Origin: a virus
IMG/VR virus record: IMGVR_UViG_3300036761_000276
Coordinates: 1-28,199 of that record
Strand: one strand, 5' to 3'
DNA length: 28,199 bases
The first letter of the stretch is position 1. Each line of letters opens with the position of its first letter. This document shows, one piece after another, positions 4,585 to 11,433 of the stretch. Both the position numbers and the translations under genes were made by a program. The notes below the pieces were generated by a model that saw nothing but the letters and a program-made list of their open reading frames with translations, was not told the origin of the DNA and did not search any database.

Positions 4585-5073
4585 TCAGGCACTCGAGCGG
4601 TAGTAGCCGTCGCCGGGGTTCCAGAGGATGTTCGCACCCGACGGGACGATCGCCGCGCCCGAGATGAGCATGTCGTGAGCGGTGACGGGGACGATGTTCG
4701 CGTCCGTGCCGGAGGTCGTGTCCGAGTCGTAGCAGACGAGGAGCTTGCGCCAGGCATCGCCGGCGGCGACCGACGTCCACGTCTGCGTCCCGAACGTGAG
4801 CGTCACGCGATCGTTCGTGTCGTCGACGGTGCCTGCGGCAATGTCCGCGTCGGTCAGCGTCTTTCGCGCGTAGTTCGTGTTCGTTGCCTCGTCATTCGCG
4901 GCGGCGAGGATCGCCGAGAGCGTGTCGTAGTCGCGCAGTACGTCATCGGATTCGAGCGCAGCCTCCCGGAGGACGACGAGGATGAGCGCGGAGTTCGCAG
5001 GATCATTGCCGTCAACGCGGGCGTGGTACTCGGCGGCCTTGCCGCGCGAGATGTTGAAGACGAAGCCGGCCAT
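4585..5073 (-). CDS. Conserved minor structural (tail-region) protein
   Basis: A 162-aa protein with FNISRGKAAEYHARVDGNDP at the start, a helical middle (VLRDYDTLSAILAAANDEAT) and a beta-rich C-terminal half (LLVCYDSDTT, DANIVPVTAHDM). From memory this layout (R.D.NDPANSAL...L..YD.L...L.A.N.E.TN..Y.RK.LTDAD) is a recurring phage structural protein found near tail fibres. No enzyme motif is visible. ATG 5073 directly abuts the TAG of the 50-aa gene (TAGATG). It probably forms part of the tail tip or a fibre. Confidence 0.7.
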   Translation of the reverse strand: MAGFVFNISRGKAAEYHARVDGNDPANSALILVVLREAALESDDVLRDYDTLSAILAAANDEATNTNYARKTLTDADIAAGTVDDTNDRVTLTFGTQTWTSVAAGDAWRKLLVCYDSDTTSGTDANIVPVTAHDMLISGAAIVPSGANILWNPGDGYYRSSA

Positions 5074-9754: not shown

Positions 9755-9795
9755 CAGCTACGCCCTCTCAGCGTGAGGGTGTCCGTGGCGGTCAT
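9754..9795 (-). CDS. Mini-ORF, 13 aa, coupling TIM-barrel gene to tape measure
   Basis: ATG 9795 overlaps the TIM-barrel stop (ATGA) and the TGA overlaps the tape-measure ATG (TGATG). It encodes MTATDTLTLRGRS. Its only plausible role is to carry ribosomes across a 37-nt gap, and it could be a chance ORF. Confidence 0.2.
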   Translation of the reverse strand: MTATDTLTLRGRS

Positions 9796-10433
9796 GCGGC
9801 CCACGCCGCCCAGTTCGAACTCCCGACGTCGTCACCGCTGAAGATCGAGAACGTCCCGTCGATGTAGCCGTACCACTCAGGCTTCGCGTCGCCGTAGGCT
9901 TGGATCGTGACGCCCACGTACGTAAATCCCTTGTCGCGCGCATGAGCGACACACTGAGCCTGGATCGTCTCGAGCTCGGCGGGGTCGCGGCGCATATCCG
10001 TAGGGAAGATTTGGAGCAGCACCGGATAGTCGCCGAGCGGGTTGTAGTCAACGTCGTTGTAGACCCATCCGACCGTCGAGATCGCGACGTCGAGAGCGTT
10101 CGACTGCAGCGTGTAATCAGGGAGCATGGCAGCGACGCGAGCGGGTGAGAGCACGTCCTTGAACTCGTCCTCGATGTTCAAGATCACCTTGGACGCGAAC
10201 GCATCGGCCGTCTCGAGCAGGTCGTGGCAATCGGAGAGCGTTCGGCATCTCGCCCAGGGCAGGACTTCGACATTCGCCGCCTTTGCGCGCTCACGAACCA
10301 CGCGCCAGTCGTCCCAGTGTTGGCCGTCGCCGACGTTGAGGGCGAGCCACTTCATGCCGGCAGCCGCCATCTCGGAGACGTCCTCGACGCCGCCCCGCGG
10401 GTTGCGCAGGAAGGACCCGCTGGCGCTCGTCAG
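9792..10433 (-). CDS. TIM-barrel-like tail protein, expressed by -1 frameshift from the upstream ORF
   Basis: This frame encodes about 213 aa from the shift point: LTSASGSFLRNPRGGVEDV, then MAAAGMKWLALNVGDG, VLPWARCRTLSDCHDLLETA, KVILNIEDEFKDVL, NALDVAISTVGWVYND and KGFTYVGVTIQAYG. The alternating strand-helix pattern with acidic ends (NIEDEF) resembles glycoside-hydrolase-like TIM barrels. The frame lacks a suitable start. The nearest (GTG 10535) lies within the coiled-coil ORF, and internal ATGs would delete the first barrel strand. A CCCTTTC heptamer (10433-10439) in the zero frame of the upstream ORF gives a -1 entry exactly at the first conserved residue. The frameshift product would be 276 aa, a coiled coil fused to the barrel. 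Between chaperone and tape measure this is an unusual position for such an enzyme-like domain. Confidence 0.7.
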   Translation of the reverse strand: MTSASGSFLRNPRGGVEDVSEMAAAGMKWLALNVGDGQHWDDWRVVRERAKAANVEVLPWARCRTLSDCHDLLETADAFASKVILNIEDEFKDVLSPARVAAMLPDYTLQSNALDVAISTVGWVYNDVDYNPLGDYPVLLQIFPTDMRRDPAELETIQAQCVAHARDKGFTYVGVTIQAYGDAKPEWYGYIDGTFSIFSGDDVGSSNWAAWAA

Positions 10434-10439
10434 AAAGGG
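10397..10439 (-). promoter_or_regulatory. Programmed -1 frameshift site with downstream stem
   Basis: In the zero frame the minus strand reads CGC CCT TTC TGA. The heptamer C CCT TTC fits the X XXY YYZ rule exactly (CCC, TTT, C) and is followed at once by the stop codon. Twelve nt downstream, GCGGGT (10420-10415) can pair with ACCCGC (10402-10397) as a GC-rich stem. Weaker outer pairing (CGCC/GGCG and GACG/CGTC) could extend it. After the slip the ribosome continues into the TIM-barrel-like frame. Confidence 0.68.
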
Positions 10440-10621
10440 CGCGATGAGATGTCCTTCCTCAGCTTGTCGAGTTCCGTCCGCAGCCGGTTTACTTCCGCGA
10501 TCATCGATTCGAGCGTCGTTGCACGTCTGGCCCACGCCGTCAGATCCTTGCCGTCCGGCCTCTTCGGATGGAAGGTATGTTCCCAGGACGCGGCCGCTCG
10601 GATGCCGTCAGGGAGGATCAC
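10430..10621 (-). CDS. Coiled-coil protein, zero-frame product of the frameshift pair
   Basis: A 63-aa ORF whose second half is a clear Leu heptad (TTLESMIAEVNRLRTELDKL). It ends right after the slippery heptamer. GTG 10621 overlaps the TGA of a 21-aa mini-ORF (GTGA). Codons are consistently G/C-ending up to the slip site, so this is the translated frame there. It could act alone as a small tail protein. More likely it provides the oligomerisation stalk of the fusion. The short and long products would then be made at a fixed ratio, as for G and GT proteins. Confidence 0.65.
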   Translation of the reverse strand: MILPDGIRAAASWEHTFHPKRPDGKDLTAWARRATTLESMIAEVNRLRTELDKLRKDISSRPF

Positions 10622-10683: not shown

Positions 10684-10955
10684 CAACCTCCGCCTCCCGT
10701 GGCCGCAGCGAGCGCCTGAGCGCTACGGTGCTCGGCGTCAGCCCAGGCCGCTCGATCGCGCGTAGCCTTCTCGACCAGAGCGTCGCGGTAGGCGAGCACC
10801 GCCTCCTCGACGAGCATCAGTCCGACCTCGTCGACGAACGTCTCGGAGCAGCACTCACACGTCACCTGCGTCAGGGTCGGGAACGTCTCCCGCAGGCTCC
10901 GCTCCGTTGTCTCCGCCAGCGCCAGTCCCCGCTGTGCTCTGTGGCTGACGACGAA
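10683..10955 (-). CDS. Second tail assembly chaperone frame (T-like), likely +1 frameshift extension
   Basis: This frame is +1 relative to the chaperone gene and is open from 11019 or so down to 10683. Its first conventional start is GTG 10865, leaving a 60-aa product with TCECCSETF and a helix (MLVEEAVLAYRDALVEKA). Upstream of that GTG, from about 10955, its codons are about 88% G/C-ending over 30 codons, whereas the chaperone frame there falls to about 56%. This suggests ribosomes are already in this frame from about 10955. A fusion would read EWATF then VVSHRAQRGLALAETTER and give about 249 aa. In tailed phages the second chaperone is normally made by frameshifting. A separate 60-aa gene starting at 10865 is the alternative. 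Confidence 0.55.
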   Translation of the reverse strand, partial: FVVSHRAQRGLALAETTERSLRETFPTLTQVTCECCSETFVDEVGLMLVEEAVLAYRDALVEKATRDRAAWADAEHRSAQALAAATGGGG

Positions 10956-11433
10956 AGGTGGCCCACTCGTCCAGGACGATGATCGGCAGCGTGTTTCCGG
11001 CGGCGTCGACGTTTCTCAGGCGCTCGGCGAACTCGAGGAGCATCCGGATGTCGAGCTCGTGGAACATCCCGGAGGCAACCTCTTCCGGCGTCACCTCGGG
11101 CTCGACGAGCATCTCGGCGATCAGGTGCGGCGTTAGGTCGGTGCCCGCCTGGATCATGTTCGAGAGCGTCTCCTGTCCCGGACCGCGCAGAGCCGCGGCG
11201 ATCACGAGCTCGCGCATCAGCTCGTCCGTGCCGTCGGGATGAGAGCTGAAGATGATCGCCGCCTCGCGCAGGTTCTCGGGCAGACGACCGGAGCGAAGGA
11301 GAGCCGCAGAGTCCGGGATGCGGAAGCGGACGACCTTCTTCGTGGGCAGGACTGCCAGGTGCGGACCGGCGTCGTTCGCCTGAGCCCAGGCGGTCTTACT
11401 AGTGGGTCTGAGAGAGCGCTTTGCGGTGGTCAT
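10855..11433 (-). CDS. Tail assembly chaperone (G-like)
   Basis: A 192-aa protein between the tail tube and tape measure genes, the fixed position of tail assembly chaperones. It has LAVLPTKKVVRFRIPDSAAL and LRSGRLPENL, the LPSG...R....LL..G.iP..L pattern of actinophage chaperones, then a helical body (EEVASGMFHELDIRMLLEFA). The C-terminal 32 residues (from RRQPQST) are a low-complexity Gly/Asp/Pro tail with poor G/C-ending codon use. They may be read only when no frameshift occurs. ATG 11433 has AAGGAGG 8 nt upstream and overlaps the end of the coiled-coil gene by 35 nt. Confidence 0.75.
   Translation of the reverse strand: MTTAKRSLRPTSKTAWAQANDAGPHLAVLPTKKVVRFRIPDSAALLRSGRLPENLREAAIIFSSHPDGTDELMRELVIAAALRGPGQETLSNMIQAGTDLTPHLIAEMLVEPEVTPEEVASGMFHELDIRMLLEFAERLRNVDAAGNTLPIIVLDEWATFRRQPQSTAGTGAGGDNGAEPAGDVPDPDAGDV

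Follow-up and report, generated by a model that had tools for sequence, protein, structure and literature searches.

How is a TIM-barrel-like domain translated when its reading frame offers no suitable start of its own? The IMG/VR virus record IMGVR_UViG_3300036761_000276, analysed here as one window of 28,199 bases, raises this question. Terminase, portal, major head and tail genes mark its source as a tailed phage, and the relevant genes lie on the minus strand (Table 1). An earlier note had proposed that a programmed -1 frameshift at CCCTTTC fuses a short coiled-coil ORF to the barrel. The heptamer was confirmed in the correct phase with the stop right after it (10439-10430), at the 3' end of the 63-aa ORF, which reads CGC CCT TTC TGA (ORF 10621-10430). 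In the zero-frame phase C_CCT_TTC has the form X_XXY_YYZ, with both tRNAs able to re-pair in the -1 frame. This frame is open from 10607 to a stop at 9794-9792 and gives 216 residues from the codon preceding CCC. The sole ATG, GTG or TTG before the barrel in this frame is GTG 10535, 31 codons ahead of the junction.

Table 1. Features of the locus, with positions in the window.
Feature	Position	Strand	Remark
Zero-frame ORF, 63 aa, GTG start, ends RPF*	10430..10621	-	two helices; model residues 28-59 form the long second one
Slippery heptamer C_CCT_TTC	10433..10439	-	re-pairing: Pro CCT to CCC, Phe TTC to TTT
Zero-frame stop TGA, directly 3' of the heptamer	10430..10432	-	TGA in L003, TAA in L002
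-1 frame, TIM-barrel domain (PFLTSASGSFLRNP...), stop included	9792..10439	-	AlphaFold2 model and relatives
Shine-Dalgarno-like AGGAAGGA, 12 nt 5' of the heptamer	10452..10459	-	candidate stimulator; fits the published distance rule
6-bp stem GCGGGT/ACCCGC	10397..10420	-	no support as stimulator
Tail assembly chaperone pair	11433-10683	-	upstream of the cassette; own candidate +1 site

The same layout was found in two other viral contigs, L003 (by alignment search; barrel 61% identical to that of the window) and L002 (by barrel scan; ~45%). Their upstream ORFs, of 67 aa in L003 and 74 aa in L002, are 46% and 29% identical to the window ORF, and both end in RPF and a stop (TCC CGC CCT TTC TGA and GGC CGC CCT TTC TAA, respectively). 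Both barrels lie in the -1 frame, start with PFL and have no preceding ATG, GTG or TTG. The 10-mer CGCCCTTTCT, from the heptamer start, is identical in all three contigs, and the flanks are ~50-60% identical; between the window and L003, nucleotide identity rises from 50% in the 24 nt before the heptamer to 100% in the ten bases and falls to 60% in the next twenty. The motif was thus kept in three of three contigs with this arrangement of heptamer, stop and -1 barrel, albeit in few sequences, and the zero-frame stop was kept with differing letters (TGA in the window and L003, TAA in L002). Conservation of C_CCT_TTC in relatives, which the earlier note had named as a check, was therefore borne out in both. 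Two divergent relatives share the heptamer, the stop directly after it and the lack of a start codon, which supports the proposed fusion of a helical N-terminal ORF (N-ORF) to a TIM barrel, and we consider a programmed -1 ribosomal frameshift at C_CCT_TTC highly probable.

The relatives also bear on two simpler readings. A gene finder would start the barrel gene at GTG 10535, which is in frame and would add an extension of 31 aa that overlaps the short ORF. This GTG has no counterpart in L003 or L002, and it is the overlapping zero-frame ORF, rather than the extension, that has counterparts in the relatives, making such a start very improbable. Alternatively, both domains could truly occupy one frame, disrupted by a sequencing or assembly indel or by gene decay, as a single metagenomic contig may carry indels. 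Three independent contigs with the same out-of-frame junction, the same heptamer and different stops make this scarcely credible, and the objection of a sequencing error, raised with the original proposal, falls away since L003 and L002 keep both junction and heptamer, unless one and the same error were present in all three contigs. The slip site is very likely real, because these two phages keep it despite widely diverged surroundings. Against a decayed gene, dN lies below dS in the conserved barrel (dN/dS ~0.4-0.5), where substitutions are mostly at third positions of the barrel frame. The N-ORF is 44% identical between the window and L003 in frame 0 versus 29% in the barrel frame; its dN/dS, over a short ORF, is ~0.7 for this pair and near or above 1 for the others, which hints weakly at purifying selection on the N-ORF alone.

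The motif was also compared with its background frequency. In-phase H_HHT_TTY heptamers numbered 0 in 29,283 codons (ORFs of at least 150 aa in the window, L007 and L008), a count that took in spurious ORFs. CCCTTTC occurs five times in 55 kb, both strands counted, and three of the five are the junctions. Among Phe codons, the share of TTT is 11% in the window, 4% in L003 and 24% in L002; among Pro codons, that of CCC is 31%, 28% and 22% in the same order. If Pro-Phe were required, the pair CCC TTT would be expected at ~3.5%, 1.2% and 5.3% in the three genomes; the product, 2e-5 if independent, is weakened by common descent, since identical amino acids in barrel pairs share the same codon in ~42-62% of cases. 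No convincing relative was found by tblastn in cultured phages (with the barrel, its relatives L006 and L013 and two N-ORFs) or in plasmids (with the barrel), or by barrel alignments in bacterial genomes, and the DNA pattern CCCTTTCT combined with a GGVE motif returned no fourth case from the viral contigs. That only three examples were found in the viral collection, and none in these other sources, counts against a programmed frameshift.

The earlier claim that the barrel lacks a suitable start of its own agrees with the window, where GTG 10535 is the only candidate, and with L003 and L002, which have none. A separate barrel protein could nevertheless be made without frameshifting from a non-AUG codon, either ATC two codons before CCC TTT or the CTG in the CTGA over the stop, served by its own Shine-Dalgarno (SD) sequence or by reinitiation after the short ORF. 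In the window and L003, an ATC occupies the position of the start Met in aligned relatives, with the SD-like AGGAAGGA or AGGAGG 6-7 nt upstream of it. Two of these relatives, L010 and L012, have ATGA stop-start overlaps behind short ORFs, and the related barrel of L011/L014 lacks both a standard start and a slippery motif, suggesting that non-AUG starts may occur in the family. In L002, however, AGG stands in place of the ATC and CTA in place of the CTG, leaving no usable start common to all three contigs, whereas all three have the heptamer together with the rare codons TTT and CCT. We regard a non-AUG start as unlikely; judged from these sequences, frameshifting is the only mechanism with a signal shared by the window, L003 and L002. 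Transcriptional slippage was rejected, as the runs are of only three bases.

In the proposed -1 frameshift, most ribosomes would end at the TGA and produce the 63-aa helical protein. A fraction would pause at CCT TTC with the SD-like sequence 12 nt behind, the Pro and Phe tRNAs would slip one base back and re-pair fully with CCC TTT, after which translation would run on into the TIM barrel. The result would be a ~276-aa fusion (...SSRPF-LTSASGSF...) with the predicted junction peptide ...SRPFLTSASGSFLR.... We infer both the slippage event and its efficiency from sequence. The short protein and the fusion could co-assemble via their shared helix, which would tether a limited number of barrels per complex.

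C_CCT_TTC belongs to the class of H_HH.U_UU.Y motifs, whose efficiency in E. coli is among the highest (PMC4066793). Applying the upstream-SD distance rule as used in that study, the SD-like sequence lies at a stimulatory distance in the window, L003 and L002, a spacing also found by chance at 20-24% of all positions. The GC-rich stem to which the earlier note had pointed is present, with GCGGGT...ACCCGC beginning 12 nt 3' of the heptamer, but it found no support as a stimulator, as the region has z = +1.2 versus shuffles and the stem is not conserved. More generally, downstream structure was rejected as the stimulator: the window and L002 did not rise above shuffles, L003 gave z = -1.95, and none of the structures is conserved. 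The upstream SD-like sequence therefore appears to be the better candidate of the two.

The barrel assignment of the earlier note holds up in a confident AlphaFold2 model (pLDDT 84.6, pTM 0.86), which has the TIM-barrel fold. Searches of Pfam, PHROGs and PDB sequences with the barrel gave no match. Foldseek matched it to TIM-barrel enzymes at TM ~0.5-0.6 and to phage proteins at up to 0.72; its viral matches, at modest scores, were uncharacterised phage proteins, GH5 proteins and lysozymes. Two residues, E91 and D204, are invariant in nine barrel sequences. L011 has a PG_binding_1 domain on the C-terminal side of its barrel (5.5e-6), with weaker matches in L010 and L013, and the gene after the L006 barrel has weak PG_binding_1 and M23 peptidase matches. 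On the strength of the Foldseek matches and of PG_binding_1 in or near barrel relatives, our best guess for the barrel, and a more probable one than a fibre, is a glycosidase-like domain directed at the cell wall. The proteins at L010 2406-3386, L011 3965-5512 and L013 1567-3114 combine a barrel with peptidoglycan binding and are possibly two-domain lysins of a new type. Judged by eye, the C-terminal part of the L011 and L013 proteins resembles a peptidase of the NlpC/P60 type (L011 has DCSSYV ... GHVTIC), which Pfam did not confirm. In its model (pLDDT 78.4), the N-ORF product forms a short helix and then one of 32 residues (28-59), making a coiled coil plausible.

The genomic position of the cassette differs among the three phages. 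It precedes the tape measure gene in the window, follows the portal gene in L002 and lies upstream of the terminase in L003. The earlier note had read the product as a fibre- or enzyme-like tail protein; this is not supported, given the sites of the cassette in L002 and L003 and the peptidoglycan-binding domains of some barrel relatives. The L003 genome is related to the window phage, with head genes ~60% identical, and it carries the cassette elsewhere, with none between its chaperone and tape measure genes. Since a relative of the window phage has the cassette at a different position, the unit of ORF, heptamer and barrel seems to have relocated as a whole.

This absence from the site between chaperone and tape measure also sets the cassette apart from a chaperone G/GT pair, which it is not. 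The earlier note had remarked that frameshifts in this neighbourhood normally belong to the chaperone, and this fits, as the chaperone has a conserved candidate +1 site of its own (window 10951-10959, minus strand; L038, reverse complement, ~2964-2972). The window and the L003 genome share the zero-frame sequence TGG GCC ACC TTT CGT without a difference, and the downstream T-like ORF lies in the +1 frame. The site resembles the UUU_CGU type of +1 site that has been described (PMC5009743), and the chaperone pair seems, by sequence, to use a +1 frameshift.

Alignment searches of viral contigs recovered more distant barrel members (L005/L006, L009-L014 and L018), which vary in how the barrel is joined to its neighbour. 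In L010 and L012, a short ORF, helical by eye, is followed by the barrel via an ATGA overlap, the same frame relation as at the heptamer, and in L005/L006 a GTGA overlap lies behind a longer ORF. The barrels of L009, L013 and L018 have ordinary starts, and L006, L009, L010, L012, L013 and L018 all have ordinary starts at or near the junction point. An extra in-frame tail follows the barrel in L006 and L018. Ten residues of the L006 tail (QIGFQDGIKA) match the start of the L002 N-ORF (KIGFQDGIEA; E = 4e-4 in a single comparison), a match that is no more than suggestive; within the family, the barrel and a short partner probably also occur as an in-frame fusion in the other order. Straight after the stand-alone barrel of L009, a short coiled-coil-like ORF follows via a GTGA overlap (4644-5003), and helical partner and barrel thus recur as neighbours in either order. 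In L011 and L014 (3908-4010), the PG_binding_1-fused barrel has no ATG, GTG or TTG, and no slippery heptamer in its overlap with an open frame of 52 residues upstream; translation might begin at a CTG here or involve some other recoding event. Tentatively, and with more doubt than confidence, we propose a mobile phage cassette in which frameshifting from a self-assembling helical mini-protein sets the dose of a new wall-directed TIM-barrel family and tethers it. From one phage to another, this family would switch among separate genes with an ATGA overlap, a fusion by frameshift and an in-frame fusion in reversed order.

Several known systems resemble parts of this arrangement. Ig-like domains are appended by frameshift to the T3 capsid protein and in Lactobacillus phage A2 and Listeria phages (PMC5009743). 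There, as proposed here, a frameshift (-1 or +1 in those cases) near the end of the short product adds a C-terminal domain to a fraction of the molecules, and the domains have spread among carriers. In contrast, the added domain here is a TIM barrel and not an Ig fold, it is carried by a helical protein of 63-74 aa and not by a capsid or major tail protein, and carrier, heptamer and barrel appear to travel together. In 936 lactococcal phages, the TpeX extension of the major tail protein is a carbohydrate-binding module, and the SPP1 major tail protein is also extended (PMC6669499). These likewise use a programmed frameshift to tether an accessory domain in limited copies, but on a tail tube protein and with a binding module or Ig-like domain in place of a TIM barrel. 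The lambda gpG/gpGT chaperone makes short and long forms by low-level -1 frameshifting (PMC5009743). Short and long forms are also proposed here, and the tape measure gene is nearby in the window; however, the products are unrelated, a relative has the cassette elsewhere and the chaperone pair is separate and upstream. The SD-stimulated -1 sites of dnaX and the IS3 family similarly have an SD-like sequence at a stimulatory distance upstream of X_XXZ_ZZN (PMC4066793 rule), whereas the motif here is CCCTTTC, not of the A_AAG type, and no downstream hairpin is conserved. Finally, the barrel shares its fold and modest Foldseek matches with phage lysins and glycosidases of the GH25/GH5 type, and PG_binding_1 occurs in some of its relatives; unlike these enzymes, it has no Pfam, PHROG or PDB sequence match and its catalytic residues are putative only.

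A literature search of limited extent, with subscription journals outside its scope, found no earlier report of this arrangement. If the -1 frameshift operates as proposed, it would extend the range of domains added by programmed frameshifting in phages to a TIM barrel, with a carrier outside the known structural proteins. Ordinary gene calling would miss the fusion, placing the barrel start at an unrelated GTG or inside the fold. With its ATGA-overlap genes, frameshift fusion and probable reversed in-frame fusion, the family offers a direct test of how frameshift sites evolve from stop-start overlaps.
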